A stretch of 64,000 nt of DNA, taken from NCBI GenBank assembly GCA_038852285.1, contig JAWCKG010000007.1:1-64000 (forward strand). Direction: 5' to 3'. The notes below the pieces were generated by a model that searched no databases, was not told the DNA's origin, and saw only the letters and a program-made list of their open reading frames with translations. This DNA is from Candidatus Bathyarchaeia archaeon (lineage in GTDB: Archaea; Thermoproteota; Bathyarchaeia; 40CM-2-53-6; DTGE01). Of the stretch, positions 14,538-54,106 are shown in pieces; the first letter of the stretch is position 1, and each line of letters starts with the position of its first letter. The translations under genes were made by a program, and so were the position numbers.

Positions 14538-15170
14538 ATGGTTGAACGAGATCGGTTATCGGAATTACTGGAGTTCCTGAAAACTTTAGAGGGCGAGGAA
14601 GAAAATGCAGCGGTTCGGAAAGTCTCCGTTGAATTCAACTGCCCGCTGGAGGAGGCTAAACAATTATTGAAAGAGGCTGTCAACGGGGGCTTCCTCGAAA
14701 TTTTGAACAGTAAAATCAACGTTACCAGTAAGGGACATGAAAAAATTGTAAAGCATCGAGAAATGTACATACATGAAAAATATGGGCATATGGGTCTGTT
14801 AGAGCGATTTTTAAAATTTCCTAAAAGAAGTATAGGTGATTGGCGTCTACACTGGGTTCGAAAACATGGATTAAACGGAAATTCCGTACAAGTCTTTTAC
14901 AGGGACATCCAAAGCCTCAAAGGATACGTTGAGCATACCCTTCCATTAACGGCTTTAAAAGAGGGCGAAAGGGGAACCATAGCTTACGCTTTAGGAGGAA
15001 GGGGACTGATTAAACGTTTAAGCGAAATGGGATTAACCCCAGGAACTGAAATCGCCGTAAAAAGGATAGCCCCATTTTACGGGCCTGTTCAGATAACGGT
15101 TAGAGGATCCTCTCTGGCCTTAGGCCGGGGAATAGCCTCAAAAATCTTCGTCAAACACGAAGGAGGATGA
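14538..15170 (+). CDS. Winged-helix/FeoA-domain protein
   Basis: 210 residues. The first 75 resemble a DtxR-like helix-turn-helix (SVEFNCPLEEAKQLLKEAV, then NVTSKGHEKIVKHREMY). The last 75 are an FeoA SH3-like domain: LTALKEGERGTIAYALGGRG, LIKRLSEMGLTPGTEIAV and ALGRGIASKIFV. FeoA associates with FeoB and supports Fe(II) uptake; bacterial FeoA is normally a stand-alone protein of about 75 residues. The extra N-terminal domain could make this a DNA-binding FeoA (an FeoC-like role). The stop overlaps feoB by four bases (ATGA), so the two are coupled. Confidence 0.8.
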   Translation: MVERDRLSELLEFLKTLEGEEENAAVRKVSVEFNCPLEEAKQLLKEAVNGGFLEILNSKINVTSKGHEKIVKHREMYIHEKYGHMGLLERFLKFPKRSIGDWRLHWVRKHGLNGNSVQVFYRDIQSLKGYVEHTLPLTALKEGERGTIAYALGGRGLIKRLSEMGLTPGTEIAVKRIAPFYGPVQITVRGSSLALGRGIASKIFVKHEGG

Positions 15171-33408: not shown

Positions 33409-34461
33409 TTGGAAACGTCGTGGCGGCTTTTACGGTACAGCGTCGCCGACGTGAAGGCGAATGAAGCCTTCGAGGAGGCCATGTTGCAGGCGACCCGCGG
33501 CGAGAGCCCTTCAAACACTCTAAGGGTTTGGCGGAGCGGGAAGGCCGCGGTGGTGGGGAGCAGCGTGGACGTAGAGGCATCCGTGAACCTTGAAGCCTGC
33601 CGCAGCCTCGGGGTTCCAATCGTGAGGAGCCCATCATCCCTCAGAACGGTTTACCAGGATCAAGGCACGTTAAACCTCACGTACCTGGTGGATCAGAGGA
33701 GACTGTTCCCAGGGTTAGAATCCCTAATCGAAGTATATAGAAGGCTTTACAGCCCTCTCGTGAAGGCTCTCGCCGGGTTAGGATTAGACGTGATGCTTGG
33801 GGAAAGCGCTCAAACCATGCTCGTTGGGGATAGAAGGGTTTCCGAGGCTGGGGCCTGCTTCTACTACGATTGGATTCTCTTCAGGGTCTCTTTGAACGTT
33901 GAAACAGACCTCTCCACAGCCGCACGGGTCTTGAAGAAACCTCCCCCCGCCACAACCGTGGGCGGAGAGTTAGGCGGAAAAGTTGACGTGGTTGAAGTGG
34001 AACGGGCTTTGATTGAAGGCATCTCCACCCAGCTGGAAGTTAAGCTTCAAACCGGGCAGCCCACCCCGGCTGAGTTGAAGTTGGCTGAAAAACTATTGGA
34101 GGCAAAATACTCTAAGGATGATTGGAACCTTCACATGAAGGCGCCTTTAACACTGAAAGACGTGTTGGTGGATGTGTATGTGGCTTATCCGCCGACGAGA
34201 AGCTGCGTCCAACTAGTTAAAAACGTGAAATCCGCGTTGGAGGGGTTTATGGACCGTGTGGAGTTGAGGGTGTGGATGCGAGGTAAAGGATTGGAGGGGA
34301 AGGGGGTTCCACCGGGGGTCGTGATGCCGGGCGGCTTGATCAGGGCCTCTAAGGAGTCCATCATCCCAGCGGTCATCATCAACGGAGAAATCTCCTTCTC
34401 AAGGGACGTCCCGTCGATGGACGAGTTGAAAAGCAAGGTTTTGCAGGCGATGGGAAGCTAA
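33409..34461 (+). CDS. Degenerate lipoate-ligase-like protein fused to a thioredoxin-like domain
   Basis: 350 residues. Residues 1-250 follow the LplA (BPL/LPL) fold and align with the next gene, but the signature is lost: RRMSGGGAVYHDLGN of the neighbour reads RSPSSLRTVYQDQGT here, and the lysine of GKKVSG is replaced (DRRVSEAG). The last 95 residues resemble a thioredoxin fold, ending PAVIINGEISFSRDVPS with a cis-Pro-like IPAVIINGE, but only one cysteine (RSCVQL) is at the active-site position. Such a protein cannot ligate lipoate in the usual way. It may act as a subunit or chaperone of the active ligase, which starts two bases downstream. Start TTG 33409. Confidence 0.75.
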   Translation: METSWRLLRYSVADVKANEAFEEAMLQATRGESPSNTLRVWRSGKAAVVGSSVDVEASVNLEACRSLGVPIVRSPSSLRTVYQDQGTLNLTYLVDQRRLFPGLESLIEVYRRLYSPLVKALAGLGLDVMLGESAQTMLVGDRRVSEAGACFYYDWILFRVSLNVETDLSTAARVLKKPPPATTVGGELGGKVDVVEVERALIEGISTQLEVKLQTGQPTPAELKLAEKLLEAKYSKDDWNLHMKAPLTLKDVLVDVYVAYPPTRSCVQLVKNVKSALEGFMDRVELRVWMRGKGLEGKGVPPGVVMPGGLIRASKESIIPAVIINGEISFSRDVPSMDELKSKVLQAMGS

Positions 34462-34463
34462 GG

Positions 34464-35207
34464 TTGAATTGGCGTCTTTTAACCGGTGGATCATTGGACC
34501 CGGTGTTTAACCTCGCCCTGGAGGAGTCGATGGTGAGGAGTAGAAGGGAGGAGCTTTGCCCAGATACACTGCGATTATGGAGGAACACTAACTCGGTCAT
34601 CTTGGGATGCCACACCCGCCTCCAAGAGGAGGTGAACCTGAACGCCTGCGTTGAAATGGGCCTTAAAATCGTCCGGCGCATGTCAGGCGGAGGCGCGGTT
34701 TACCACGACCTCGGAAACCTCAACTACACCGTGATCGAGAAAGGAAACCTCAGCGACGTATACGAGGACGTCGTAGAGGCCTACATGGCTTTTTCGAAGG
34801 CCATTCTACTGGGGTTGGAGAGGCTGAACGTGAAAGCTGAGTTTCATCCCCCAAACCTAATCCTTACAGATGGAAAAAAGGTTTCAGGCATGGCTCAACA
34901 CCGGTTTTACGATGTTACGCTGCTTCACGGAACCCTGCTGGTAGACTCGAACCTAGACGCAATCTCGAAGGCGTTGTTAAACCCCAGGCATCAGGTTGCG
35001 AACATAACCGACCAAGCTGGTAGGCGCCTTAACATGCGACAGGTGGTACGCGCGCTGATTGAAGGGTTTGAAAACGCCTTCAACGTTCGATTAAACCCGG
35101 GACGGCTGAGCCCCCACGAGGTGGCGTTAGCACAGAGCCTGGTGAAGCTCAAATATGGTCTGCCTCGATGGAACCTTAAGGACGAAGAGCCCACTAACAT
35201 CCCGTAA
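34464..35207 (+). CDS. lplA: Lipoate-protein ligase A
   Basis: 247 residues. It activates lipoate or octanoate with ATP and transfers it to a lysine of H protein or E2 subunits. Complete motifs: RRMSGGGAVYHDLGNLNYT (about residues 71-89) for substrate binding and DGKKVSGMAQ with the adenylate lysine. It lacks the separate C-terminal accessory domain of bacterial LplA. The start is TTG 34464, two bases after the previous stop. Position next to an arsenic cluster may be chance, though dithiol lipoyl groups do bind arsenite. Confidence 0.88.
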   Translation: MNWRLLTGGSLDPVFNLALEESMVRSRREELCPDTLRLWRNTNSVILGCHTRLQEEVNLNACVEMGLKIVRRMSGGGAVYHDLGNLNYTVIEKGNLSDVYEDVVEAYMAFSKAILLGLERLNVKAEFHPPNLILTDGKKVSGMAQHRFYDVTLLHGTLLVDSNLDAISKALLNPRHQVANITDQAGRRLNMRQVVRALIEGFENAFNVRLNPGRLSPHEVALAQSLVKLKYGLPRWNLKDEEPTNIP

Positions 35208-38125: not shown

Positions 38126-38869
38126 CTAACGCTTGAGCTGAGGAATCCTCGCCCATACGGCTTTGACTAAGGGTATGGCGACGATCAGCCCTATTACGGC
38201 TTGGCCTAGGTTGACGGGAACTTCCACGAAGGCCGCTGGCCCGAACAGGATCCACTCGTAGATAAAGTACCCTGTCACCATGACGGCGCCGCCCAGCAAG
38301 GTGGAGAGGATGAGCCCTCCTAGTTTGGGTTCTTGGAGGACTCCTACCGCGATGACTAACGCGCCTGCGAGACCGGCTAACGCGGTCCAGAAGTAGGATG
38401 GGATTTGGAGTTGAAGAGTGGTGTATCCTGGTGCGGGCAGTCCAAAGGAGGCTTCGACGGCTCCAGTGTACTTCGTCACTCCGATGTAGGCTATGAGGAC
38501 GGCGATCGCCACGCCTAGGAGGGTGGTGTAAGCCCTCCACCGACCTTCAGGCCTAGGCTTCATGAACATTCTCCCGAGGATTCCAACCACGGCGCCTTCA
38601 CTCGCCTTTATGAGGAGGGTGGCGGGGGCGTATAAGGGGTATCCGAGGATTAGATCCGCCAACATCGAGCCTACGCCCCCCGCGAAGGCTCCTATGTATG
38701 GGCCAAATAGTAGAGCGGTGGTGTAAACCATGGTTTCACCTATGTTAAAGTATCCTCGAGTGGCTGGGACGTAAACCGAAAGCATGGCGGTGGCCACCGT
38801 GACCAGCGCTGTGAACACAGCCGTTGCCGCTATCGAAGTGTGTGATATGGTTTTTAGCTTGTGAGTCAT
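38126..38869 (-). CDS. ECF transporter substrate-binding (S) component
   Basis: 247 residues, about six membrane helices. The pattern RGYFNIGETMVYTTALLFGPYIGAFAGGVGS and ADLILGYPLYAPATLLIKASEG is that of S components for vitamins and cofactors. The frame starts ATG 38869. It is transcribed divergently from the threonine-synthase-like regulator across a 66-base gap with symmetric TATA elements, so the two are probably controlled together. Substrate inferred from that partner: a cofactor or amino-acid-related compound, for instance vitamin B6, thiamin or a threonine-pathway compound. No EcfA/T genes nearby. Confidence 0.75.
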   Translation of the reverse strand: MTHKLKTISHTSIAATAVFTALVTVATAMLSVYVPATRGYFNIGETMVYTTALLFGPYIGAFAGGVGSMLADLILGYPLYAPATLLIKASEGAVVGILGRMFMKPRPEGRWRAYTTLLGVAIAVLIAYIGVTKYTGAVEASFGLPAPGYTTLQLQIPSYFWTALAGLAGALVIAVGVLQEPKLGGLILSTLLGGAVMVTGYFIYEWILFGPAAFVEVPVNLGQAVIGLIVAIPLVKAVWARIPQLKR

Positions 38870-38899
38870 TTTTAGCCGTTGGCTTTCACTCGAAACAAT

Positions 38900-38921
38900 T
38901 ATATAAGCTTAATCTTATATA
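38900..38921. promoter_or_regulatory. Symmetric divergent promoter/operator between ECF S component and regulator
   Basis: TATATAAG (38900-38907) and CTTATATA (38914-38921) are an 8-bp inverted repeat with a 6-base spacer. The left element is a TATA box about 30 bases before the plus-strand ATG (38936), making that mRNA nearly leaderless. The right element serves the minus-strand gene. A dimer bound on the symmetric site would block both promoters. Confidence 0.55.
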
Positions 38922-38935
38922 TTAGGCGAGTTTGA

Positions 38936-40405
38936 ATGCCCCGCCCATCCCTCCTATGCCACGAATGCCGTAAAACATACAACCTAGAAGGAGAAGACTA
39001 CGCCTGCGTCAGCTGCGGTCAACCTTTACTCATCACCTACGACCCCGAAGATTTAAAGGAAGCGTTCGATCGAAGACGACCCCTAGAACCGGAATATGGT
39101 GTTTGGAGGTTTCGGCGAACACTACCCTTCCCAACACATGTCGAGCCAACCTCACTAGGTGAGGGAGACACGTACCTTACTCGATGTGAAAGACTGGAGC
39201 GGCTCTTGGGCTTAAAAGCCCTTTACATAAAAAACGAGTCAACAAACCCAACAGGCTCCTTCATCGACAGGGGCTCAACGATCCTTGTTACCCATGCGAA
39301 GCAGAAACGTCGTTCAACGATTGTGTTCGCTTCAACCGGCAACCTAGGATCCTCCCTGGCCGCTTACGCCGCCAAGGCGGGGATTAAATGCCGCATCTAC
39401 ATACCGTACAGAGTCGACCTGGGAAAACTGTATCAGATGATCGCGTATGGAGCTGAGGTGAAGCCAGTGAAAAGTATAAATGAAGCCTTAGAAAAAATAC
39501 CGGGAGGACGATCAGAACTCGATTACATGGTCACGAAAAACAATCCCTACCCCTTAGAAGGATATAAAACCATCTTCTACGAAGTCGTGGAACAGCTGAA
39601 GAATAGTCCTCCAGACAGGGTAATCGTGCCCATGGGATCCGGGGGGCTCATCACGGCCCTGTGGAAAGGGATGGTTGAAATGGAGGAGGCAGGCCACCTG
39701 AGTGGGAAACCCATGTTGACCGGAGTACAAGAAAACTTATGCGACCCCATCGTTAAAGCGTATCAAGGCTTAGAGCCTTTAAGGCAACCTGCTGAGGAAG
39801 CACCCCTAGCCCTCGACCTATACGTTTCCCAGCCCACCTATGTTAGGACGGCTTTAAAAGCGATCAAGGAGTCAAAGGGAACGGCCACCTCGATCTCGGA
39901 CAAGGACATCGTAGAGGCGGCCAGCCTAGTGGCTAGAACCGAGGGGATCTTCGCGGAGTCAGCCGCCGCATCCACCATAGCTGGGTTGCGAAAGCTGTTG
40001 GAGGAAGGGTTGATCGAGAGATCTGAAACCGTGGTTTGCGTGGTCACCGGTGAGGGGTTAAAGGACCCTTCGATGGCGATGAGGATTGTTAAGAAGGAAA
40101 GGACCTTGAGCAAAATGATCTTGAGGATGAACAGTAAGGTGTCGAGGTTCGGCGAAACAAAGGTCGCCATCCTAAGCGTTCTCAACCGTGAAAACCTTCA
40201 TGGTTACGGTATCTGGGGGGAGTTGAAGAAACGGTTTAAAATCAGGATCACGCCGTCCGGGGTTTACCAACATTTAACCGAACTGGAGATGGCCGGTATG
40301 CTGAAAAAATGTAGAGTTGAAAGGTTAGAGGGGAAGCCTGAAAGAATCTATTACACTTTAACGGAGAAGGGGAAGAAGGCCCTCATAGAGTTAACACGGC
40401 CGTGA
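38936..40405 (+). CDS. Threonine-synthase-like protein without PLP lysine, fused to PadR-like wHTH
   Basis: 489 residues. An N-terminal zinc-ribbon (CHECRKTY and CVSCGQPL) and a fold-type II PLP domain follow threonine synthase closely: TNPTGSFIDRGST, STGNLGSSLAAYAAKAG and VPMGSGGLITALWKG. The Schiff-base lysine of GSFKDR is isoleucine here (I110, codon ATC), so PLP cannot be held covalently and normal catalysis is unlikely. Residues about 405-489 are a PadR-like winged helix: ILSVLNRENLHGYGIWGELKK, ITPSGVYQHLTELEMAG and RIYYTLTEKGKKAL. It is divergent from an ECF S component. I read it as a ligand-sensing pseudoenzyme repressor; a moonlighting enzyme is the alternative. Confidence 0.85.
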   Translation: MPRPSLLCHECRKTYNLEGEDYACVSCGQPLLITYDPEDLKEAFDRRRPLEPEYGVWRFRRTLPFPTHVEPTSLGEGDTYLTRCERLERLLGLKALYIKNESTNPTGSFIDRGSTILVTHAKQKRRSTIVFASTGNLGSSLAAYAAKAGIKCRIYIPYRVDLGKLYQMIAYGAEVKPVKSINEALEKIPGGRSELDYMVTKNNPYPLEGYKTIFYEVVEQLKNSPPDRVIVPMGSGGLITALWKGMVEMEEAGHLSGKPMLTGVQENLCDPIVKAYQGLEPLRQPAEEAPLALDLYVSQPTYVRTALKAIKESKGTATSISDKDIVEAASLVARTEGIFAESAAASTIAGLRKLLEEGLIERSETVVCVVTGEGLKDPSMAMRIVKKERTLSKMILRMNSKVSRFGETKVAILSVLNRENLHGYGIWGELKKRFKIRITPSGVYQHLTELEMAGMLKKCRVERLEGKPERIYYTLTEKGKKALIELTRP

Positions 40406-40430: not shown

Positions 40431-41384
40431 TTAACCGGAGGTAAACTGGTAGGATTTAACCTTACCCTTATCGAGGGTGACGATAACTCCTCTAAGTAAT
40501 CCTTCGGAATACTCTGAGCCGGGGTTGAGGCATATGGTTTTTCCGATTTTCGCAACCCCTCTGGATTCGTGAACATGGCCGTGAAGTCCCAGCATTGGCT
40601 GATATCTCTCTATGGCATTCCTCACGGATCTGCTTCCCACATTCTCCAACACGACTTCACCCGCTTGAGTCGTCACGACTTTTGGAGGGGTTACTGAGGT
40701 GTCGAGCTTCGGAGCCACGTCCAATCCTGAGCCGTAAGGCGGCGCATGGAGGTTAAATATGGTTTTGCGGACGTCTCTAACCGTTGAGGCTAGCTCGTTA
40801 ATTCTCTCGCCCAGATCCTCGTCCGGCACATCTCGAGGACATTTCCAAGGCGTCATGTTCACTTGACTGAGGCTGATCATTTCCACATCGCCGTTTAAGC
40901 TCACAGCCTCGCCGTCGGGATCGATGATAGCCTGAGAGGAGCGTAAAACCTTATCCACCGAGTAGCTATCGTCGTTTCCCCCGGTGACGAAAAACTTGAC
41001 GTTTAACCCTTTCAACCTCTCTTCAGCCATCTTAACCCACTCCTTAACCCTCTGCAAAATCAGCTGGTCGAGCATTTCTCTCAACTTTTCAGGGTTGGCA
41101 TCCAACTTCCTTTTCCCTTCTTCATCCACATGGAAAAAATATCCACCCGTATCCCTGATTTGCTGCTCCAAAGACTTTAACTCCTCTTCGCTTCTCAAAA
41201 CCCATTCATCACCCATGAATCGGCATCTAAACGCATCGCCACGCCGAACAATCGGCACTACGAACTTACCTGTGATGTCTCCTCCCAGAATCAGCACGTC
41301 CACTTTATAGTATTTAGGGGCGTTCAGGAATTTCTTAAAGCAGATTTCCGATCCATGTATATCGGTAGCGAAGAATATGCGCAT
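40431..41384 (-). CDS. Calcineurin-like metallophosphoesterase (paralogue A)
   Basis: 317 residues. Metal-site motifs are complete: D8-x-H10 (ATDIHGSE), GGD36 (LGGDITGK), GGNDD (FFVTGGNDDSYS), NLHAPPYGSG and LGLHGHVHESRG. This is the phosphodiesterase/phosphatase fold with two metals. An insert of about 60 residues between GD and GND, mostly helical, and a C-terminal LNPGSEYSEG-like tail are shared with two paralogues in the window. The gene is last in the APC-NTase-MPE operon (10-base gap). Substrate unknown: cyclic nucleotides, nucleotidylated protein or another diester are candidates. Confidence 0.9.
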   Translation of the reverse strand: MRIFFATDIHGSEICFKKFLNAPKYYKVDVLILGGDITGKFVVPIVRRGDAFRCRFMGDEWVLRSEEELKSLEQQIRDTGGYFFHVDEEGKRKLDANPEKLREMLDQLILQRVKEWVKMAEERLKGLNVKFFVTGGNDDSYSVDKVLRSSQAIIDPDGEAVSLNGDVEMISLSQVNMTPWKCPRDVPDEDLGERINELASTVRDVRKTIFNLHAPPYGSGLDVAPKLDTSVTPPKVVTTQAGEVVLENVGSRSVRNAIERYQPMLGLHGHVHESRGVAKIGKTICLNPGSEYSEGLLRGVIVTLDKGKVKSYQFTSG

Positions 41385-41394
41385 AAACCCACCT

Positions 41395-42144
41395 TCACGT
41401 TGAAACGTCGCTAACCTCAGAATACCATTTAACCTTAGCCCCTATTCTCTGCCTCATCTTCCATTTAAGGGATTTCGGCTCAGCCTTCACGCGGGAAACC
41501 AGCTCTCTTATCCTCGAGAACACCGTCCCCTTATCCCTAGCTGGAACGTCATATCCCTCCAGGAAGTGCTCAATCTTCCTTAGGTTCGAAGTAAAGGTGT
41601 GGTAAAACCCCCAGTCATCCGATAAAAGCTTGGAAACGTAGTTTACGTTCACCTTCTCAACGTCGTCGCCGCCTAATGGATGCTCCAGCAACAAGGCGAT
41701 GGCGTCCACTATGTCTTTCTCAGCGATCTTCACTATCTGCATTTTTTCCAGCAACATGTCCGCGACGCTGATCGTCGGATAATCCGCGGTGAGCCTTTCT
41801 CGCAAGTCGATGGTATGCGACATCTCCAGCCTGTCGAAGAACACGTCAGCCTTCAACCCGTTTGAGTGGAAAAGGTATCGACGGCCTCCGTGAACCCAGT
41901 TAAACCGCTCATTAGGCTCGAAGCCAAACCGACGCATCAGACCAGTAATCTTATCCCTATACTTACCTAAAGTGATTAAATCGATGTCCGTTACAGGTCT
42001 TTTAACCTTTTCAAAAAAAGATAGGGTGTTTGGGCAGTGGATCCTGAAGGCACATGCCCCCAGGATTCTCACCTCCACGTCGCTCTTCTGGGCCTCCTCG
42101 ACGATCGAGGCCGCAGTTGAACAGATCGCTGGTAGCTTCTTCAC
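41395..42144 (-). CDS. Nucleotidyltransferase-fold protein (paralogue A)
   Basis: 249 residues. The N-terminal part has the nucleotidyltransferase-fold signature in LGACAFRIHCP and VTDIDLITLGKYRDKI (D53, D55 chelate metal) and a third acid in LKADVFFDRLEMSHTIDLRERL. The C-terminal half begins TISVADMLLEKMQIV and is helical. This resembles AbiEii/antibiotic-type nucleotidyltransferases more than tRNA or sugar enzymes. It starts GTG 42144, 13 bases after the APC permease and 10 before the phosphoesterase, so all three are co-translated. Role unknown; modification of a protein or small molecule is a reasonable guess. Confidence 0.75.
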   Translation of the reverse strand: MKKLPAICSTAASIVEEAQKSDVEVRILGACAFRIHCPNTLSFFEKVKRPVTDIDLITLGKYRDKITGLMRRFGFEPNERFNWVHGGRRYLFHSNGLKADVFFDRLEMSHTIDLRERLTADYPTISVADMLLEKMQIVKIAEKDIVDAIALLLEHPLGGDDVEKVNVNYVSKLLSDDWGFYHTFTSNLRKIEHFLEGYDVPARDKGTVFSRIRELVSRVKAEPKSLKWKMRQRIGAKVKWYSEVSDVST

Positions 42145-42157
42145 CGCTCCTTCCCGC

Positions 42158-43756
42158 TTACTCCGGTGGAATCTCCTTAAAGGCCAAGCCTATATCTATT
42201 CCTTGCCTACGCCTGACAAACCATACGATGGCGAAGTACACCGCCACTATCAAATATAGGAGGGCGACGATGGTCACCCCGATTAGTGAAACGCCTCCTA
42301 GCGCTGGAAACGTGGCGTAAAGGCCTATCGCGAACAGCGTGGGTATCGTTCCTAGAATGCCCAGTATGGTGATAAGCGGTATTCTCCCAACCATATACTT
42401 CGCTATGGGAGAACGTTGGAAAACCCCTTTCATGGTGTAGGGGAAGAAGATCCCGGCGACGCTAGTTCCAAGGATGATCGTCAGATACGAATAGGTGTTC
42501 GCGACGAAGGCCCTCGCTATGGTGAACTCAGGGTTGATGATGGCTAAAGCCCCCCATATCAAGGTTCCAACGGTTAAAGCCGTCAAAGCCACCAAGGGCG
42601 CTCTCGTCCTCGGATGCACGTAGGTCACCGCTGAAGGCAGTAGGCGGTCGAAGGCGTGGGCGAACATATACTTGGTGGCGTTCGCGAGGTTTAGGACGTT
42701 GTAGAATATGATTTGACAGGAGTGGCTTAGAATGAATATCCAACACGCTATCAGCATCATCGAGCCTCCTAAGCCGAGGGCGGCTAACGCTGGATACCAG
42801 GGTAAGTGGGGTGGAACCATCAGCTTACCAGTTATGAAAAGCCATGAAATAGATTTCCAGAACTCGTCTCCGATGGCCCTCGGAACCAACGCGAAGATCG
42901 ATGTAACGATCGCTGTCGTTATCAGAAGAGGCCCCACAAACGCCAGCGTGGTCCTTCGTACTTTTTCAACCTCCTTTACCTCCCCTATGTGAGGAATGGC
43001 GCTTTGACACCACAACATGATTGAGTATGGGATGCCCATCAACGCTATTGTTTGAGTCCAACTGAACTCCGTGACATGCGTGTAGCCTGCTTCTTTAGCG
43101 GCTTGAATAATGCCCTGATAGGCGCCTGCGCCGAAAAACTGGTCGAATAAACGCATGAATTGAGGCTGGGTGATGGACGCTAAGGCGATTAAGAGCAATA
43201 TGTGGCCTACGGCTAAGATCGCTGTGAACACCGTTACAAGCCTCCCCATCAGCCTCATGCCGGTAGCCACGATCACAGCTGGCAAAACCACTATCACCAC
43301 CATCACAACCGCCACCCCGATGTTTGTTGAAAGCCAGGCGGCGAACCCCTTAAGCCCAGCCAGCCAAAACGCCAAGGGAACGTATATGCCCGCCCAAGCC
43401 CTCGCGTTAGCGTTCGCCCAACCCATCAAGAAGAATACCCCAGCCACGAATGTTAAGGCGAATCCGAACAGCGGATGTATAATCCTAGAAACATACACAT
43501 AGTCTCCGCCCGCCCTTGGGGTGCTGGACGCCAAGAACGCGTAGCACAGCATGGTGGGAACCAGCAGTAGGCCTCCTATCAACGCGGCCAGGGCAGCGTT
43601 GCCTCCTGGAAACAACGCTACCAGGAAGTATTGCAGCCATGTAGCCGCGCTGAAAGCGCTGTTAGCCATGAAATTGTAGTAGAATAACACCCACGGAGAC
43701 CATTCACGCCTCAACCCGCTGGCAGCCCGAGGATAAACCATTCTCTCGGAAACCAT
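42158..43756 (-). CDS. APC-family amino acid permease (paralogue A)
   Basis: 532 residues, about 12 transmembrane helices. STPRAGGDYVYVSRIIHPLFGF and the region GEVKEVEKVRRTT are characteristic of the APC superfamily. N-terminal cytosolic residues PRAASGLRREWSPW and a C-terminal tail GIDIGLAFKEIPPE are conserved with the two paralogues, at 44930 and 51202. The gene opens the operon with the nucleotidyltransferase and phosphoesterase. Substrate unknown. Confidence 0.9.
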   Translation of the reverse strand: MVSERMVYPRAASGLRREWSPWVLFYYNFMANSAFSAATWLQYFLVALFPGGNAALAALIGGLLLVPTMLCYAFLASSTPRAGGDYVYVSRIIHPLFGFALTFVAGVFFLMGWANANARAWAGIYVPLAFWLAGLKGFAAWLSTNIGVAVVMVVIVVLPAVIVATGMRLMGRLVTVFTAILAVGHILLLIALASITQPQFMRLFDQFFGAGAYQGIIQAAKEAGYTHVTEFSWTQTIALMGIPYSIMLWCQSAIPHIGEVKEVEKVRRTTLAFVGPLLITTAIVTSIFALVPRAIGDEFWKSISWLFITGKLMVPPHLPWYPALAALGLGGSMMLIACWIFILSHSCQIIFYNVLNLANATKYMFAHAFDRLLPSAVTYVHPRTRAPLVALTALTVGTLIWGALAIINPEFTIARAFVANTYSYLTIILGTSVAGIFFPYTMKGVFQRSPIAKYMVGRIPLITILGILGTIPTLFAIGLYATFPALGGVSLIGVTIVALLYLIVAVYFAIVWFVRRRQGIDIGLAFKEIPPE

Positions 43757-43956
43757 AGCTATTTCCCGTTAACGGGCTTGCGATGTCATTATATTTTAAA
43801 CTTTCGGGGGATACCGGTCAAAACAAGGTTGGCAAGATGTCGGTTATCGGTTAAGCTTAGATGCAGATTGATCGAGAACCAAGCATCACAACGCCTGATG
43901 AAAAATGGGGGCTCAAGGGTGAAGTAAATGAAAAGAGGGGTTTTAAGGGTGTGGTT

Positions 43957-44910
43957 TCACCCTGTGGTGAAGAGGAAGTCTCGGATTCTGTCTTCTGAAA
44001 CCTGTATTAACGCTCCTTTTAATACGCCTTCCTGATACTCGCTTCCAGGGTTTAGGCAGAGGGTTCTGCCGATTCTCGCGAAGCCCCTCGACTCGTGGAT
44101 GTGTCCATGCAAACCTAGAAGGGGTTGTTGGTTGGCGAGCGATTCCCTGACGGCTTGGCTTCCCACAGGCTTTGTCTTAACTCCCTTTCCAGGCTCGAGT
44201 TTAGGCCTCAGCTGCTCGTCCAGCTCTGGGGCTTCGTCGAGGCCTGTCCCATAAGGTGGGACGTGGATGTTGTATATGCTTAACTTTGGGTTCTGTACTT
44301 CCACCGCTAAGCGGTTGAGTTTATCCCTTAACGTTTCCTCGGTTACGTCCCTTGGACACATCCACGGCGTGATATTCGAGTATCCTAGGCTTAGCATTTC
44401 ATGTCGGCCTTTGACCATGACGATTTTCTCGTTTGGATTGACGATTCTCTCAGCTTTCTCCAATACTTTGTCTATGGCGGGGATGTCGTCGTTGCCCGGG
44501 GAGATGTAGCATTCTATGTCCGTGCTGGAAAGTCTTTCATCAGCCATTTCAACCCATCTCCGCAGGTTGGCGGTGATTATGGATTCGAAGAGGGCTAGGC
44601 GTTTTTCCCCGTTTTCCTGAAAGATTTTATACTCTTCTTCGTCGGTCACCATCGGGTATGATCCTATCGAACGTATCTTCTCCTCAAGCTCCCTTAAAGC
44701 CTTCTCGCCTTGTGCGTGGACGGTTTCGCCCAGTAAACGGCATCGATACCCGTTATTTGACTCGAATATGGGAGTTACCGTTTTCCCTGTGATGTCTCCG
44801 CCCATGATGATGACGTCAGCCTTGTAAAGTTTACCCGCGTTGAGGAATTTCTTAAAGCATGTTTCCGAGCCGTGGACGTCGGTGGCGTAGTAAAGCCTAA
44901 CCCCCTTCAC
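43957..44910 (-). CDS. Calcineurin-like metallophosphoesterase (paralogue B)
   Basis: 317 residues, same length and motifs as the copy at 40431: ATDVHGSETCFKKFLNAGKLYKA, GGDITGKTV, ISPGNDDIPA, NIHVPPYGTGLDEAPELDE and LGLHGHIHESRG. The match continues through the insert domain and the C-terminal tail, so the two are close paralogues. Starts at GTG 44910, 19 bases after the stop of the APC permease upstream, giving a two-gene operon. The nucleotidyltransferase that accompanies copies A and C is not between them; copy B lies 2.7 kb upstream, with the formamidase. Confidence 0.9.
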   Translation of the reverse strand: MKGVRLYYATDVHGSETCFKKFLNAGKLYKADVIIMGGDITGKTVTPIFESNNGYRCRLLGETVHAQGEKALRELEEKIRSIGSYPMVTDEEEYKIFQENGEKRLALFESIITANLRRWVEMADERLSSTDIECYISPGNDDIPAIDKVLEKAERIVNPNEKIVMVKGRHEMLSLGYSNITPWMCPRDVTEETLRDKLNRLAVEVQNPKLSIYNIHVPPYGTGLDEAPELDEQLRPKLEPGKGVKTKPVGSQAVRESLANQQPLLGLHGHIHESRGFARIGRTLCLNPGSEYQEGVLKGALIQVSEDRIRDFLFTTG

Positions 44911-44929
44911 GCCTCTTCCACACCCTTTT

Positions 44930-46552
44930 TTACTCCGGCGGGATCTCCTTGAAAGTTAACTCTAACGGTATCCCAACCCGGCGGTGGTATAAGGAGGACG
45001 CCGCGTATATGACGAGGGCTAAGGCGAACAGCGCGAAGGTAAAGACGAGGATGATGGGGTCTATAGTGCCAACGAGGGCTGGCGACATGCTGCCGTAGGC
45101 CAGCCAAGCAGAAACGATGATCGTCAAAACCCCTAGGATTCCAAGCACTGGCACGGGACCGATCTTCGCCCTGACGATGGAAGGCGATTTATCCCATATG
45201 TCCTTTCTCCGGAGTGGGAACACTATGCCTGATATGGCGGCGATGCTCTGGGCGATCATCCACCCGAACACGGCGTAGGCGAAGTAGTTGAGCAGTGGTG
45301 TCCAAAGCCACGCTGCTTGGAGGATGATGGCTATGACGGTGACGAAGATCAACGCCATATACGGGGAGTTGTATCGCGAGTCAACCTTTGAGAGGGCGGT
45401 TGGCACAACCCTGTCAAAGGACCAGGCGAAGACAAGACGCACCGTTATCGCCACGTAGGTGAGGATGGCTCCCAGGATCATGGCGGACCAGCAGATCATC
45501 ACGAAGTTGTACATGGCTTTGCTGCCGGCGGCGTATTGGAACAGCAGCATGAAGAATGGGCCGTCGGAGAAGGGCAGTTTATAGGCGGGATCTCCTACCG
45601 CCCATAGGTAGGAGAGGGCTCCGATGAGCGTTCCACCCATTCCATGATATGTGGCTTGGTAGGCGAGCCATGTGATGAACCCGAACACGACGATGGATCC
45701 TATGATGGCGATGAGCTGGGATTTCTGAACCTCCTTGATTTCACCGGACGCGTAGACTGAGGAGTTGAACCCTATGAAGTTTATGTAGGTGAAGACTAAG
45801 CCGAGCATGGTGGCGGGGAGCAGAAACTTGCCTGGGAAACCTGCGGATTCAGCCGCTCGGATTGCCTCCTGTGGGTCCAGCCCTGTCTGAGCCTTGAGGG
45901 CGGTGGTGAAGGTTTCTGGGCCGACGCGGAGCAAAGTTATGGTGTACGCGATTAACCCGATGAAGACTAGGCTGAACAGGATCCACAGTGTGGTGGTGGT
46001 CGCCTTTGAACCCCTGGAAACGATGGCGGCGAAGATTAGGTATATGATGACGGCCGCGAGGAAGGTGAATTCCGTTGAGGCGACGGTTGAGGCGGCTGCG
46101 CTGTACCCGTTGAACTCCAGCATAGGGGCTAACGCGTACTGGGTGAGCCATGGAACATATGCTCCTGCGACGCTGAGCAAGACCATGAAGATGAAGAAGT
46201 TGATCATGAAGCCGATGGATGGGTGGAGCACCCGGCTGACCCAGACGTAGTCGCCTCCCGACCTAGGCATGGCAGCGGAGTAAACCGCGTAGAATAACCC
46301 TACGATGACGCTGATCGGAATGGCGAGCAAGGCCGTTGTTGGGAGGTGAACCCCAGGGTAGATGGCTGAAGCCCAAATCCCATATACGAAAACGGCTGTA
46401 GGCGCCATGAACATCACGTTTAAAATCAAGGCGTCCCACGCGGAAATGTTCCTGACAAGCCCTGAAGATTTCCTAACCAATATTTTATTAGCCATTTCGG
46501 CCACAAAACCATATTTAACATGAAGCTTAGAATTTAAATCCTTCCATCCCAT
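44930..46552 (-). CDS. APC-family amino acid permease (paralogue B)
   Basis: 540 residues, 12-helix APC permease with VRKSSGLVRNISAWDALIL at the N terminus, SAAMPRSGGDYVWVSRVLHP and YASGEIKEVQKSQL. It resembles the copies at 42158 and 51202 along its length, and ends GIPLELTFKEIPPE. It lies just upstream of metallophosphoesterase B. The gap of 156 bases to the formamidase gene upstream may contain its promoter. Confidence 0.9.
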   Translation of the reverse strand: MGWKDLNSKLHVKYGFVAEMANKILVRKSSGLVRNISAWDALILNVMFMAPTAVFVYGIWASAIYPGVHLPTTALLAIPISVIVGLFYAVYSAAMPRSGGDYVWVSRVLHPSIGFMINFFIFMVLLSVAGAYVPWLTQYALAPMLEFNGYSAAASTVASTEFTFLAAVIIYLIFAAIVSRGSKATTTTLWILFSLVFIGLIAYTITLLRVGPETFTTALKAQTGLDPQEAIRAAESAGFPGKFLLPATMLGLVFTYINFIGFNSSVYASGEIKEVQKSQLIAIIGSIVVFGFITWLAYQATYHGMGGTLIGALSYLWAVGDPAYKLPFSDGPFFMLLFQYAAGSKAMYNFVMICWSAMILGAILTYVAITVRLVFAWSFDRVVPTALSKVDSRYNSPYMALIFVTVIAIILQAAWLWTPLLNYFAYAVFGWMIAQSIAAISGIVFPLRRKDIWDKSPSIVRAKIGPVPVLGILGVLTIIVSAWLAYGSMSPALVGTIDPIILVFTFALFALALVIYAASSLYHRRVGIPLELTFKEIPPE

Positions 46553-46708: not shown

Positions 46709-47677
46709 TTATTCTAAATGTTTTTTCGAGATCTTCGCGACAACCGTGTACAAGGGGTCCACTATCTGAGCGATCCTAGCCTTGCCGGCTATGCTTAGCA
46801 GCATGTACGCGTCGTAGGTGGAGAACCCGTAGTCGCTGCGCATCCAATCTATGAGCTCTCTGAAGGCAAGCCTCGCCGCGTCTTCCAATGGCCTGGCGCT
46901 ACCCACTGCCATAATCTCCTCCTGAGATTCTATCCTAGGCCACTCTATCGTCCTCCCCTTTAGGATGGTGAACCTTAAGGTTATGGTGGCTGGGACCTCT
47001 ACGGCTGTTCCACATATTTCTCCATCTCCCTGCGCTGCGTGAACGTCTCCTGCCGCGAACAAGGCCCCTTTAACTCCTATGGGGAGGTATAGGGTGTTTC
47101 CGGGGCAGATGTCGGCTACATCCATGTTTCCGCCATGCTTGTGGGGCGTTATGGTGGATATGGATTCTGTGGGAGGCGATACTCCTATGGTTCCGATGAA
47201 GGGCTTTAAGGGTAGCTGTACCTCTTTGCCGTGATCTGTCTTATAGTATATTGCGTTGTTCCTGATGTTGGTGAATTTGGTGGTGGCGGGCATTTTGGTT
47301 AGCCATCCTTCTAGGGCTCCGAATCCTGGCACGATCGTTGTGACCCCGAGGTCTGGGACTTGGATGTCGATTACCTCCACCTTTAAAACGTCGCCTTTCT
47401 CAGCTCCTTTGATGTAGATGGGCCCTGTCACTGGGTTATCGTATATGGGTGTTCCTGAGCCCAGTATCTTGTCCAGCTCCTTGCCGGGCCTTACGGCGTC
47501 GGCGAAGCAGTCGTAGGTTTCTATCTTCACCGTTTCTCCAGGGGAAACTTTCATGACGGGTTTATTATGTGGGCTGAAGGTGCAGTCCACCGTTTCTGAA
47601 AGGTCCTTCCTTTTATGGACGAGCTTCAAATCCACCGCCTTTTTCAGCGGGATCTTTCCTCTACGTCCCTCCACCAC
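46709..47677 (-). CDS. Formamidase/acetamidase
   Basis: 322 residues of the FmdA/AmdA family, which releases ammonia from formamide or acetamide. The N-terminal HKPVMKVSPGETVKIETYDCFAD-like region, GPIYIKGAEKGDVLKVEVIDI and CPGNTLYLPIGVKGALFAAGDVHAAQGDGE are hallmark segments. It starts with GTG 47677, inside the 3' end of the nucleotidyltransferase gene (34-base overlap), so these two are co-translated. It is the only catabolic enzyme in the three-module region and hints that at least one of the permeases takes up amides or amide-yielding amino acids. Confidence 0.9.
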   Translation of the reverse strand: MVEGRRGKIPLKKAVDLKLVHKRKDLSETVDCTFSPHNKPVMKVSPGETVKIETYDCFADAVRPGKELDKILGSGTPIYDNPVTGPIYIKGAEKGDVLKVEVIDIQVPDLGVTTIVPGFGALEGWLTKMPATTKFTNIRNNAIYYKTDHGKEVQLPLKPFIGTIGVSPPTESISTITPHKHGGNMDVADICPGNTLYLPIGVKGALFAAGDVHAAQGDGEICGTAVEVPATITLRFTILKGRTIEWPRIESQEEIMAVGSARPLEDAARLAFRELIDWMRSDYGFSTYDAYMLLSIAGKARIAQIVDPLYTVVAKISKKHLE

Positions 47678-48456
47678 TTCTTCTTAGATCCCTGCTTGTT
47701 TCTTTTCTCCCAATTCTTGGTTTTCGGCTGCAACTCGATCAGGCTTTGAAGCTTCTCCATCCTCTCGGAAACGACGCTTTGAACCTCCTTCCCGACCATG
47801 CTCTCCTTCACATATTTTTCAAGATATTTCAGCGTTTTCTGAAGGTTAATGGAGGCGTCGTACCAGAAACCCCAGTCTTCAGACAGAAGCGTCGCGACGT
47901 ACTTCCCGTTAATGATGTTTTCACCCTCCTCTTCTCCCACAATGTTAGCTGCGAAGAGGAGTATGATGTCCTTGATGTCTTTCTCATTGATTTCGTGGAT
48001 TTGAAGCTTTTCCAACAGAAGGTCTGTCGGTGAGGCTGTTAAGGCGTTGAGGTTTAATCGACCCTCCTTCGGGTTTGAGCCAAACTCCACGGTGTGGCTG
48101 AACTCAAGCTTGTCGAAGAACACGTCCACACCATATTTCTTCTCCGGGTGGTGGAACATCATCCTTGAGCTTCCATGCAGGAGGAGCGCGTATTGATCCA
48201 CCTGGTATCCTAACTCTTCGAGGAGTTTCCTCACCTCGTTTCTCTGGCGGCTGTAGGCCGCTAAGTCGATGTCCGTGAACTTTCTCTCTGAGTTAAGCCT
48301 GTTCAGCTTATGGAACAAGTCTTCATGGCGCCACGCGTTGAGCCTGATGCCCACGGCCCCCAGTACTCTCAGGTATAAGCCTCTTTCAGCGGCTTCTTTC
48401 ACTAAGGTTACGGCGTCCTCCAAGATGATTTCGTCTTCTCTACTCAACTCAACCAC
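47644..48456 (-). CDS. Nucleotidyltransferase-fold protein (paralogue B)
   Basis: 270 residues. Same layout as copies A and C: LGAVGIRLNAW, FTDIDLAAYSRQRNEVRKLLEELGYQ and KYGVDVFFDKLEFSHTVEF, then SPTDLLLEKLQIHEINEKDI. Metal acids are D, D and D as in active enzymes. It lies upstream of, and overlaps, the formamidase, not the phosphoesterase, unlike copy A. Starts at GTG 48456. Confidence 0.75.
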   Translation of the reverse strand: MVELSREDEIILEDAVTLVKEAAERGLYLRVLGAVGIRLNAWRHEDLFHKLNRLNSERKFTDIDLAAYSRQRNEVRKLLEELGYQVDQYALLLHGSSRMMFHHPEKKYGVDVFFDKLEFSHTVEFGSNPKEGRLNLNALTASPTDLLLEKLQIHEINEKDIKDIILLFAANIVGEEEGENIINGKYVATLLSEDWGFWYDASINLQKTLKYLEKYVKESMVGKEVQSVVSERMEKLQSLIELQPKTKNWEKRNKQGSKKKWWRDVEERSR

Positions 48457-50200: not shown

Positions 50201-51148
50201 TTGATTAAGAGGATCTTTTATGCTACAGACATCCATGGTTCAGAGGTAGTTTTCCGAAAATTCGTGAGCGCTGGCAGATTTTATAAAGCCGATATAGTGA
50301 TTCTTGACGGAGACCTTACTGGAAAAGCCATCGTCCCAATAATCAACAAGGGTGACGGATCTTTTGAAGCTGATGTTTTAGGCGAGAGATACCTTGTTAA
50401 TAGAGACGAGGCTATGGAGCTGGAAAATAGAATAAGGAATTTAGGTTTTTACCCTTTAATTTTAAGCGAGGATGAGCTGGAGGATTTAAGGGGAAGCCCG
50501 AGAAAAGTGGATAAACTCTTTGAAGACATGATGGTCAGAGAAATTAGGAAGTGGGTTTCCCTTATTGAACAGAATTTGAAGAATTCAGGCATTGATTGCT
50601 ACGTTTTGCCTGGGAACGACGACCGATTTGAAATAGATAAAGAGTTAGAGGGTTCTGATTATATCGTTAACCCTGAAGGCAGGGTCGTTGATTTGGATGG
50701 GGTACATGAGATGATAAGCTCGGGGTGGAGTAATCCGACACCATGGAATACGCCTAGAGAGGAAAGCGAGGAGGAACTGGGAAGGAGAATAGAGGCCATG
50801 GCCTCCAAGGTTAAAAATATGGAAAACTGCGTTTTTAACCTTCACTGCCCTCCGTACGACACTGGAATAGACAACGCACCCCAACTGGACGAGAATTTGA
50901 GGCAGGTAGTGAAAGCGGGTGAATTAATCATGGTTCCGGTCGGCAGCAAATCCGTTAGACAGGTCATTGAAAAGTATCAGCCTTTGATAGGCCTCCACGG
51001 CCACATACATGAATCTAAGGGTGCGCGTAAGGTTGGTCGAACGCTATGCGTTAACCCTGGCAGCGAGTATCAACAAGGTACCCTTAAAGGGGTGATAGTG
51101 AATCTCGACGATAAGGGAGTAAAGTCTTTTATGTTTACTTCTGGTTAA
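50201..51148 (+). CDS. Calcineurin-like metallophosphoesterase (paralogue C)
   Basis: 315 residues with the motifs of copies A and B: ATDIHGSEVVFRKFVSAGRFYKA, LDGDLTGKAI, LPGNDDRFEI, NLHCPPYDTGIDNAPQLDE and IGLHGHIHESKG. Starts at TTG 50201. It is more AT-rich than copies A and B. It faces the APC permease copy C (convergent, 53-base gap), so here the module is broken up into separately transcribed genes. Confidence 0.88.
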   Translation: MIKRIFYATDIHGSEVVFRKFVSAGRFYKADIVILDGDLTGKAIVPIINKGDGSFEADVLGERYLVNRDEAMELENRIRNLGFYPLILSEDELEDLRGSPRKVDKLFEDMMVREIRKWVSLIEQNLKNSGIDCYVLPGNDDRFEIDKELEGSDYIVNPEGRVVDLDGVHEMISSGWSNPTPWNTPREESEEELGRRIEAMASKVKNMENCVFNLHCPPYDTGIDNAPQLDENLRQVVKAGELIMVPVGSKSVRQVIEKYQPLIGLHGHIHESKGARKVGRTLCVNPGSEYQQGTLKGVIVNLDDKGVKSFMFTSG

Positions 51149-51201
51149 CTTCGGTGAATGGAAATAAAAAAGATGAGGGGGAGTGAAGCGGCTTAGATTT
51201 A

Positions 51202-52764
51202 TCAGGCTGGAGGGATCTCGCTGTATATTAAATCTAAGTCTATGCCCTGTTTTCTTCTAACGTATTTACTAACATAGTATACGATGAAGGCCCCCCAGAA
51301 GAATACCAGTGAGGCTATGATGAACCATATTCTCTGTAGTATGGCTTGACCCGTTGTGAACTCTGTATATGGGGGAAAAGTGTAGGGCCATGCAGATAGC
51401 CCGTACAGGAGAAGGGCCATGAATATCGTTGAAATAACTCCAGCTATAGTGATGAGGGGTAACTTTCCAATTTCCTTTTGAGCCGGTGAACCTTCATACA
51501 GTTTCCTCCGTCTCCATGGGAAGATTATTCCTGATATCGATGTGAAGAAGTAAGCCATCGTGCAGCTAATAGTGATTCCCGCGACCCACGTTACAAAGGC
51601 TACCCACCACGTGTAGAGGATTAAAGCGATCTCAGACAAGATGAAGATAAATAGTATAGCGTATGTCGGTGCGTTGTATTTTCTACTTACCTCTGAAAGT
51701 TTGTCTGGTAAGATTCTGTCGAAGGACCATGCCATCACAGATCTACTTGTGAACGTGTAAACGAAGATCATCGTGCCGAACGGCCAGAGTATGAATCCAA
51801 GTCCCATTATCCAGATTAAGGATACGTTTGGGGCGCATAGGCTGGCGAACAGGTTATAGGAGGCTGGAACCGGTAGAGGGCTCTTACCAATTAGTTGTAA
51901 GAAGTAAAGGCTTCCTAGGAATTGGTCGCCTAAAACGTATTGCATTCCGTAAGCCATTATTAGGGTTAAAGGAGCAAGTATTGCTAACGACCCCATAATG
52001 GAAAACAGCATGTTTTTCCTCGGGTTTTGAAGTTCACCCCCCGCGTATACATTATTTTGAGTGTATAATACGGTTAATCCTGAGTATCCGATCGCTATCA
52101 GTGATAACCATTTGTCATTCCATCTCTCCAGTATAGGGAAGCCCTCCTGAGCTCCGGCTTCAATCACACCTGTATATGATGTGAGAGCGTTGAATCTGCT
52201 TACGAATACGTCGTGAGGCGTTAACGCGATCACAAATATTGCTATACACACACCGATCATACCGATTATCCACAATATTTTTTGGGCAATCATACTAGGT
52301 CTTAGTCCCCTCAGAACTATCGCTAATATTACGACATTTATGAGGGTGGCTATTATGAAAGTTACTAGGGGCGTAGTAACCCACGTAGCCATGTTAATTA
52401 GCCCAGGATTATTCGTCATTACTCCCAGTGTGGATAAGAAACCAGCCATCCCGATCGTCATAGCCCAGTTACCATAGATGCTAATGAATATACCAGCGCA
52501 CATTATCATCGCGACGTTAGCGGCGAATCCCCAGGCTGGCGTTAAGGTTCTAGAGTTAAATACATAGTCTCCACCTGAGAGTGGGAAAGTGGACCCGAAA
52601 AGGACGTAGACTATGTCTAGGAAAACCGCCGCGATTATCGCCCATATAATTGACCATACCATGTGGGACCCCGGGTAGGTTGAGGGAACAAACAATAATC
52701 CAACCGCGCCGAAAATGAGGTTAGCTAACAGAATATTACCTATTAAAGCGTCCCAACCCGACAT
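51202..52764 (-). CDS. APC-family amino acid permease (paralogue C)
   Basis: At least 520 residues from ATG 52764. Twelve helices with FPLSGGDYVFNSRTLTPAWGF, VYAGGELQNPRKNM and a terminal GIDLDLIYSEIPPA match the copies at 42158 and 44930. Homology continues upstream of the ATG: the frame reads ASERLFVRKASGLVRG before it, like VRKSSGLVRN of copy B, but ends at TGA with no ATG, GTG or TTG in between. Either translation begins at a non-standard codon (ATT, after an AGGTG) or the 5' end has been damaged. Confidence 0.88.
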   Translation of the reverse strand: MSGWDALIGNILLANLIFGAVGLLFVPSTYPGSHMVWSIIWAIIAAVFLDIVYVLFGSTFPLSGGDYVFNSRTLTPAWGFAANVAMIMCAGIFISIYGNWAMTIGMAGFLSTLGVMTNNPGLINMATWVTTPLVTFIIATLINVVILAIVLRGLRPSMIAQKILWIIGMIGVCIAIFVIALTPHDVFVSRFNALTSYTGVIEAGAQEGFPILERWNDKWLSLIAIGYSGLTVLYTQNNVYAGGELQNPRKNMLFSIMGSLAILAPLTLIMAYGMQYVLGDQFLGSLYFLQLIGKSPLPVPASYNLFASLCAPNVSLIWIMGLGFILWPFGTMIFVYTFTSRSVMAWSFDRILPDKLSEVSRKYNAPTYAILFIFILSEIALILYTWWVAFVTWVAGITISCTMAYFFTSISGIIFPWRRRKLYEGSPAQKEIGKLPLITIAGVISTIFMALLLYGLSAWPYTFPPYTEFTTGQAILQRIWFIIASLVFFWGAFIVYYVSKYVRRKQGIDLDLIYSEIPPA

Positions 52765-52809
52765 ACCTCTTACAAGGCCGCTTGCCTTCCTAACAAATAA
52801 TCGCTCGCT

Positions 52810-53300
52810 CGCCGTAGAAATTCACCTATTTTTCTTCAATTAAACACGTAATCTATGTTTATAATATTTAAAATTAACGATCCATAATCTAAGAATCGCG
52901 GGGCCTCAAGCCGTGTAACAGGTTATAAGAAGATTCTTAAGGTAGAACCGATGGAAGACGCATAGCTTATGGTCTATTGTTCTGTCATGTGGTCAGGAGG
53001 GCTGAAGCGCAGTCATGTGAAGCTATACTGAAAGCATCTTAACATTCTTAAATTCAGCCTAGCCCTAACGGAGGCATAAGTCTCAATAGCACTATTTTTA
53101 AAATTTTCTCCATATTCGATCGCTACCCGGAAGTATGTTTAATATCGGTTCAAATTGGAAGCATTGCTTTCTTTGGCTAGGCGAAACTAGACAAGAGCAT
53201 TAGTGGGAAATTATAGGAAGAATCCCAGGAGACTTCGTTCTTTACCTCAAAATTTATAATGTGCAATTTACGTAGCGATGAACAGCTTTAATCTTAAATA
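52810..53300. other. AT-rich gap between permease C and nucleotidyltransferase C
   Basis: About 490 bases with no supported frame. It separates two divergently transcribed genes and probably holds both promoters. Sequence is AT-rich with no obvious repeat or palindrome that I could establish. Confidence 0.4.
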
Positions 53301-53302
53301 AA

Positions 53303-54106
53303 ATGGTCGTCCAATTAGTAAAGAAGCCAGAGCTGGAGGACACAATATTGTCTCTATCCAACTTTGTCGAGGAAGCATGGAGGATTGTTGATGTGGGTAG
53401 AAAAGAGGGAGTGACTTTAAGGGTAATGGGGGCTACCGCCATTAAAATACACTGCCCGACGTTTTCAAGCCTCCAGGAATCTTTAGGTAGAGAAATTTCA
53501 GACGTAGATTTCATGGCGTACAGTTCTCAGAAAGACGAGGTCATGAGGCTGCTTTTAAGGCTTGGATATAACTTTGACAGACGAAGCCTGATGATAATGA
53601 GGTACTTTAATAGGTACATTTTTGAAGACGTAGAAAATAAACGACATGTAGATGTTTTTTTCGACAAACTGGAGATGTGTCATACCATCGATTTTAAAGA
53701 GAGGCTAGAAGTAGATTATCCGACGATTTCATTAGCGGACCTCTTACTAGAAAAGCTTCAAATAATTAAGGTTGCCGAGAAGGATCTTAAAGACTGCATA
53801 GTTCTTCTCAGGGAACATAATGTAGGTGAACATGATGAAGAAACTATTAACATTAAATACATTTCAAATCTATTGTCAAAAGATTGGGGATTCTACTATA
53901 CTGTAAAGATGAATCTAGAGAGAATAAAAAACTTTCTGAACAGCCACCCTACCCTTAAAGCTTCAGATAAATCGAACATCCTCCAAAAAATCAGCTTATT
54001 AGAAACAGAAATCGAAAATGCGCCTAAATCGATTCGATGGAAAATGCGCGCAAAAGTGGGTCCCAAACAAAAATGGTATCGAGAAGTAGAGGAGGTAGAA
54101 CGCTGA
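53303..54106 (+). CDS. Nucleotidyltransferase-fold protein (paralogue C)
   Basis: 267 residues. MGATAIKIHCPTFSSL, ISDVDFMAYSSQKDEVMRLL and DVFFDKLEMCHTIDFKERL carry the same active-site acids as copies A and B, followed by TISLADLLLEKLQIIKVAEKD. The C-terminal half ends KSIRWKMRAKVGPKQKWY, shared with copy A (KSLKWKMRQRIGAKVKWY). ATG 53303. AT-rich relative to copy A. Confidence 0.75.
   Translation: MVVQLVKKPELEDTILSLSNFVEEAWRIVDVGRKEGVTLRVMGATAIKIHCPTFSSLQESLGREISDVDFMAYSSQKDEVMRLLLRLGYNFDRRSLMIMRYFNRYIFEDVENKRHVDVFFDKLEMCHTIDFKERLEVDYPTISLADLLLEKLQIIKVAEKDLKDCIVLLREHNVGEHDEETINIKYISNLLSKDWGFYYTVKMNLERIKNFLNSHPTLKASDKSNILQKISLLETEIENAPKSIRWKMRAKVGPKQKWYREVEEVER

Follow-up and report, generated by a model that had tools for sequence, protein, structure and literature searches.

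In a 64,000-nucleotide stretch of a Candidatus Bathyarchaeia genome (contig JAWCKG010000007.1; hereafter the window), one gene codes for a threonine synthase-like protein that has lost the Schiff-base lysine and carries a PadR-type winged helix at its C terminus. Gene neighbours and conserved DNA sites suggest that this fusion protein is, quite probably, a PLP-sensing, autoregulated, one-component repressor of vitamin B6 supply. We are highly confident in the prediction that the protein regulates B6 genes by binding DNA, and have good confidence in B6 or PLP as the predicted signal; a role for PLP as co-repressor seems somewhat more plausible than one as inducer. We also consider it likely that the protein belongs to a widespread archaeal family of PLP-sensing regulators that arose, independently of MocR/PdxR, when a threonine synthase lost its lysine, that would bind PLP non-covalently, and that would control B6 synthesis and uptake through a 24-bp operator found across the phylum. 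An analogous regulator built on a different PLP fold had been proposed in a sequence-only reading of the same DNA, and the B6 neighbours and the conserved sites at B6 genes lend support to that proposal.

The fusion protein and its PLP site

Residues 107-113 of the fusion protein read GSFIDRG, and Ile110 aligns with the catalytic lysine of GSFKDRG in the threonine synthases 2zsj, 2d1f and 6cgq (Table 1), as the sequence-only reading had claimed. A sequencing error or local oddity was considered and rejected: the ATC codon is two base changes away from AAA or AAG, all 10 aligned relatives of the nearest group have Ile or Leu at this position, and lysine is missing from nearly all of the fused proteins described below, so that the residue is neither an error nor an accident. 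Fold-type II enzymes cannot carry out PLP chemistry without the Schiff-base lysine; its loss implies that such chemistry should no longer be feasible for the fusion protein. The same reading held that all other fold-type II motifs are kept. This is true of Asn136 and of Thr371, which we take, from what is known of the family, to be the partner facing the PLP pyridine nitrogen, but not of the phosphate-binding loop, GSGGL in place of GNAGN, nor of the TGHGLKD motif of threonine synthases, which is TGEGLKD here and TGSGLKD in most fused relatives. Among the features that characterize ThrC, the fusion protein thus has the ThrC-type fold-type II domain and lacks the Schiff-base lysine, the GNAGN loop and TGHGLKD. 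It passes the NCBI thrC model TIGR00260 (212 bits, cut-off 167), so that automatic annotation would name it threonine synthase and metabolic models would credit a step that it should not catalyse.

An AlphaFold2 model of the protein was obtained with a mean pLDDT of 86, and threonine synthases ranked first when it was compared with the PDB using Foldseek. The PadR-type winged helix, which had been placed at about residues 405-489, was confirmed by a Pfam match to PF03551 over residues 412-483 (3.3e-13; 49.9 bits against a cut-off of 27). In a sequence comparison with the PDB, this part of the protein also matched PadR proteins and AphA, and the model shows helices at residues 407-418, 423-433 and 440-452 and a wing formed by strands 456-462 and 470-475. 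At the N terminus, all four cysteines of the zinc-ribbon-like segment are invariant in alignments of the fused family; with unfused relatives added, Cys24 and Cys27 are still invariant, and Cys8 and Cys11 nearly so.

Table 1. Positions of the fusion gene, its coding features, the divergent gene and the candidate operator in the window
Feature	Position	Strand	Basis
ECF-transporter S component, 247 aa, PF07155 (PdxU/HmpT family), divergent from the fusion gene; predicted regulated target	38126..38869	-	Pfam match, 5.8e-31
Candidate operator, 24 bp, TTATATAAG-CTTAAT-CTTATATAT	38899..38922	.	Inverted repeat, conserved across relatives
Threonine synthase-like/PadR fusion gene, 489 aa	38936..40405	+	ORF and translation; Pfam PALP and PadR
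N-terminal CxxC...CxxC zinc-ribbon-like segment (Cys 8, 11, 24, 27)	38957..39016	+	Cysteine conservation
Fold-type II PLP domain, residues 73-372	39152..40051	+	PF00291, 1.7e-66; AlphaFold2 model; Foldseek match to threonine synthases
Codon ATC, Ile110 at the Schiff-base lysine position	39263..39265	+	Sequence; alignment with solved threonine synthases and relatives
Asn136, PLP-site asparagine (STGN)	39341..39343	+	Invariant in three alignments
Phosphate-binding loop, residues 234-238: GSGGL in place of GNAGN	39635..39649	+	Column counts, fused and unfused proteins
Thr371 of TGxGLKD	40046..40048	+	Invariant or nearly invariant in alignments
PadR-type winged helix, residues 405-489	40148..40402	+	PF03551 (residues 412-483); PDB sequence match; model helices and wing

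The absence of any other threonine synthase from the genome had been named as grounds for giving up the regulator reading. This is not what was found. The window genome (1.7 Mb, 99% complete) has three more threonine synthase-like genes, all with GSFKDR and none with a winged helix, one of which adjoins a homoserine dehydrogenase gene. We conclude that the fusion protein is probably not the threonine synthase of its genome.

Several other features of the window were recorded. An in-frame mini-intein splits the GTPase P-loop (GNANVGKS) in the gene for the ferrous iron transporter FeoB (15167-17737, + strand); Pfam places Intein_splicing at residues 78-219, followed by FeoB_N. A module is repeated over 40431-46552, 47644-48456 and 50201-54106; it consists of a phosphoesterase-like protein of 315-317 aa, a nucleotidyltransferase-like protein of 249-270 aa and an amino-acid permease, each present in three copies and in varying order. 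Representatives of the first two (40431-41384 and 41395-42144) gave no Pfam match at 1e-5. At another locus, L311, two aminotransferase genes flank an ORF that resembles the nucleotidyltransferase-like ones. An ECF-S-like membrane protein with a weak PF07155 match and a GHMP-kinase-like gene, overlapping by 4 nt (7249-8936, + strand), may form a further pair for the uptake and salvage of a vitamin. Finally, two lipoate-protein-ligase-like genes lie in tandem at 33409-35207 (+ strand), the first of which, 350 aa long, is extended at its C terminus and matches much more weakly.

Lysine loss and fusion among relatives

A contig search with the window protein alone returned one match only, which was distant, bacterial and lysine-bearing. 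Relatives were sought at the level of the class (256 genomes) and of the phylum (about 400), the loci were retrieved and duplicates were removed. The resulting sample, drawn by similarity to the query rather than exhaustively and covering one phylum in depth, held 169 distinct proteins, of which 59 were unfused with the lysine and 109 were fused; one further unfused-looking sequence, with Ile, proved to be a gene broken by an assembly gap. The lysine is present in all 59 unfused relatives. It is absent from 105 of the 109 fused proteins, where Arg (51), Leu (33), Ile (9), Thr (6), Met (4), Val (1) or Ala (1) stands in its place. The sequence-only reading had asked whether lysine loss and the winged-helix fusion go together, and with four lysine-bearing exceptions, all in or near family f14, they do. 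In L110, L117, L118, L119 and their relatives, which are fused, the catalytic lysine is kept or regained (NPTNSFKDR).

In a tree built without the lysine column, and from which three long rows were left out, the fused proteins fell on one side of a single branch (support 100/97); a first tree, with the three rows included, showed no clean split between fused and unfused proteins. The fused proteins were themselves divided into a clade without Lys or Arg, to which the window protein belongs (support 100/98), and an Arg/Lys clade (support 100/100). The Lys proteins are nested within the latter, and the lysine may therefore have been retained or regained there. One Met protein, L091, also falls inside the Arg/Lys clade.

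Vitamin B6 genes and a conserved palindrome

The gene divergent from the fusion gene codes for a probable B6 importer, an ECF S component of PF07155, the family of PdxU and PdxU2/HmpT (PMC9997740). A PF07155 S component adjoins 66 of the 102 fused genes with readable flanks (within 700 nt and nearly always immediately). Six others, which belong to two distinct lineages (f3 and f32), have pdxS-pdxT, the genes for PLP synthase, as divergently oriented neighbours; neither neighbour is found at the remaining 30. Because PF07155 genes are few (between 1 and 7 matches per genome in 25 genomes), we estimate that adjacency by chance would occur in around 1% of cases or less. A search for pdxS found none in the window genome, nor in 43 of the 48 fusion-bearing genomes of the phylum, suggesting that these probably import B6. 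The same type of regulator adjoins pdxST in some PLP-making genomes and the transporter where no pdxS was found. Genes of the Arg/Lys clade mostly adjoin the same PF07155 transporter, but downstream and on the same strand.

Other neighbourhoods were also seen. The Arg-type fusions L228-L231, L240 and L245 lie in gatDE operons, directly 3' of gatD-gatE, which code for a tRNA amidotransferase; no B6 gene is near them. In two genomes (loci L078 and L049), a fusion gene that has the operator and an EamA permease gene are divergently oriented, the latter accompanied at L078 by a GNAT acetyltransferase gene; both types of protein have been reported in bacterial PLP regulons (PMC5320631).

Positions 38900-38921, singled out in the sequence-only reading as a possible binding site, form a perfect inverted repeat, TATATAAG-CTTAAT-CTTATATA, which is the only match in the window at up to three mismatches (0.14 expected by chance). 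The repeat is the core of the candidate operator, which ends 13 nt before the start of the fusion gene and whose other end is 30 nt away from where the divergent ECF gene starts. The recurring site has the consensus ATATATRRG-N6-CYYATATAT. When the region from -300 to +400 of each annotated start was scanned, the site (at up to two mismatches) was found upstream of 39 of the 53 fused genes of the clade without Lys or Arg; types were assigned by residue for this count, which places L091, without a site, among the 53. No such site was found at any of 46 Arg/Lys-type fused genes or at any of six unfused genes. Since the consensus was partly built from the sites counted, only the controls and the sites found in trans and phylum-wide count as independent evidence. 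When the flanks of the phylum loci were shuffled, a match to the consensus better than 3-4 mismatches was rare. Genome-wide, at up to one mismatch, nearly every site-bearing genome has exactly one site, at the fusion locus, and there is none in 15 comparison genomes of the class or in 10 genomes of the Arg clade.

In 37 of the 39 genes, the site ends 2-25 nt before the start codon. Given the general layout of archaeal promoters, this would put its upstream half at the position of the TATA box of a leaderless transcript, and in the window a single element would then cover both divergent promoters. One operator common to the whole fused family was considered and rejected: the Arg/Lys clade is without the palindrome, which makes a single DNA site for all members impossible. 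That clade may use another DNA site or act in a different way.

In four genomes in which regulator and target are unlinked, the site precedes the distant ECF or pdxS gene. In G005 and G010, an exact copy stands upstream of a PF07155 gene located on a different contig; the site has one mismatch 26 nt upstream of an unlinked PF07155 gene in G410, and two mismatches 28 nt upstream of an unlinked pdxST in G425. Further sites were detected before a PF12822 S component in G038 (two mismatches), before a gene for a 186-aa membrane protein, as a second site, in G003 and G017, and, in a weak form (three mismatches), at pdxS in G275. The first consensus was written without any of these sites; a later, slightly wider form took in those of G005 and G010. 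A second site in G345, inside an aminotransferase gene, is probably there by chance.

Proposed mechanism and comparison with known systems

Most of the PLP pocket is kept, including its conserved Asn and Thr and a phosphate loop rich in glycine, and we propose that PLP would be bound there without a covalent bond. The winged helix would bind, as a dimer, to the 24-bp palindrome, whose conservation is observed and which is located where both the fusion gene and the divergent B6 gene are expected to have their TATA boxes. With PLP plentiful, the occupied protein would sit on the site and shut off the ECF importer (or pdxST) together with its own gene; with PLP low, it would be released and repression would be lifted, if the sign of regulation is as we suppose. 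In the window, the target would be the ECF S component. B6 is the predicted substrate of the archaeal PF07155 proteins.

The same targets could be controlled by a protein whose ligand is an amino acid-PLP adduct (an external aldimine) or another B6 vitamer, and which would read amino-acid and B6 status together. The substrate pocket of threonine synthase adjoins PLP, a pre-formed aldimine could be held unturned without the lysine, and the pocket is conserved although TGHGLKD is changed, mostly to TGSGLKD. However, the targets are B6 supply genes only, with no amino-acid genes among them, and free PLP is the simplest signal; we regard such a ligand as unlikely, if worth keeping in mind. Rather improbable is the regulation of another PF07155 vitamin, such as riboflavin or a thiamine precursor, with the adjacency to pdxST being secondary. 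Pfam does name PF07155 for riboflavin transport, and the family includes members for other substrates, but no operon for vitamin synthesis other than pdxST was found next to the fusion, and pdxST was found there in both f3 and f32; this operon carries the predicted operator in trans in G425, and the sensor itself is a PLP fold.

The nearest enzyme relatives are threonine synthases, and the protein might then regulate threonine or homoserine metabolism by sensing threonine or O-phosphohomoserine. We disfavour this possibility as very improbable, because the neighbours and the predicted operator sites are at B6 genes and not at thr genes. Moreover, homoserine dehydrogenase was not found in five out of a set of 20 fusion-bearing genomes, some of them complete or almost so (G534, 100%; G213, 99%; G038 and G003, 96%), which makes threonine an unlikely ligand. 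Thus, of the ligands suggested in the sequence-only reading (PLP, threonine or a pathway compound), the neighbours and predicted sites leave vitamin B6 or PLP as the likely choice. It is harder still to believe that the protein remains an enzyme, a threonine synthase or other PLP lyase with a DNA-binding tail in which another residue functionally replaces the lysine. Such a function would fit with the match to the thrC model, with the four fused proteins that keep Lys, and with our failure to find an unfused relative in the f3 genomes G003, G015, G017 and G019. It does not fit with the near-complete absence of the lysine from fused proteins, with seven different substitutes, six of which have no side-chain nitrogen, or with the three intact relatives in the window genome.

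A PLP-sensing repressor of B6 supply would have counterparts among several known systems. The NCBIfam model NF004170/PRK05638, "threonine synthase", spans the same architecture, and its match covers residues 7-483 of the window protein at 308 bits, below the cut-off of 421; this cut-off was passed in none of the 16 archaeal genomes tested. The model is named as an enzyme, and nothing on regulation was found for it. The winged helix is above the Pfam cut-off for the PadR family and is like that of solved PadR proteins and AphA, but it is carried by a 400-residue PLP fold, whereas PadR has a short dimerisation helix. In Bacillus subtilis, the active fold-type II PLP enzyme CysK binds a separate repressor, CymR, and so contributes to the control of transcription. 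Both systems would give a fold-type II PLP protein such a role, but CysK and CymR are unfused and the lysine is kept. The nearest archaeal parallel is provided by the ThiN-domain thiamine repressors of archaea, reportedly the subject of work by Hwang and colleagues that appeared in J Bacteriol in 2017 and is cited in PMC8305020. These archaeal regulators also join a vitamin-enzyme domain to an HTH that controls the genes of the vitamin itself, but the enzyme fold, the vitamin and the HTH are all unrelated to those of the fusion.

In the open-access literature, we found no ThrC-PadR, threonine synthase-like or fold-type II PLP regulator and no archaeal B6 regulator, and within that scope the family is most likely a previously undescribed B6 switch. 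It offers a candidate B6 sensor, operator and importer together, over dozens of lineages. B6 importers are largely unidentified (PMC9997740); if our proposal is true, they would be identified for many archaea without pdxS.

The MocR/GabR/PdxR regulators are bacterial proteins that join a GntR winged helix to a fold-type I aminotransferase domain, and those of the PdxR type control PLP synthesis, uptake and salvage (PMC5320631). In these regulators, a PLP-enzyme fold has become the sensing part of a one-component protein, and the same would hold for the fusion. The fusion, however, is archaeal and has a different operator, and it consists of a fold type II threonine synthase with a C-terminal PadR domain and no Schiff-base lysine, where MocR has fold type I and an N-terminal GntR domain. 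Neither the N-terminal GntR domain nor the fold-type I domain is present in the window protein, which makes the fusion an analogue of MocR/PdxR and not a member. As for the control of PLP metabolism via operators, conserved sites are seen at pdxST and PF07155 genes, and the regulation itself is predicted. The fusion family is probably independent of MocR/PdxR in origin. This suggests a second conversion of a PLP enzyme into a B6 regulator, on another fold and with the catalytic lysine removed, a conversion that can be tested by comparing fused proteins with their unfused sisters.
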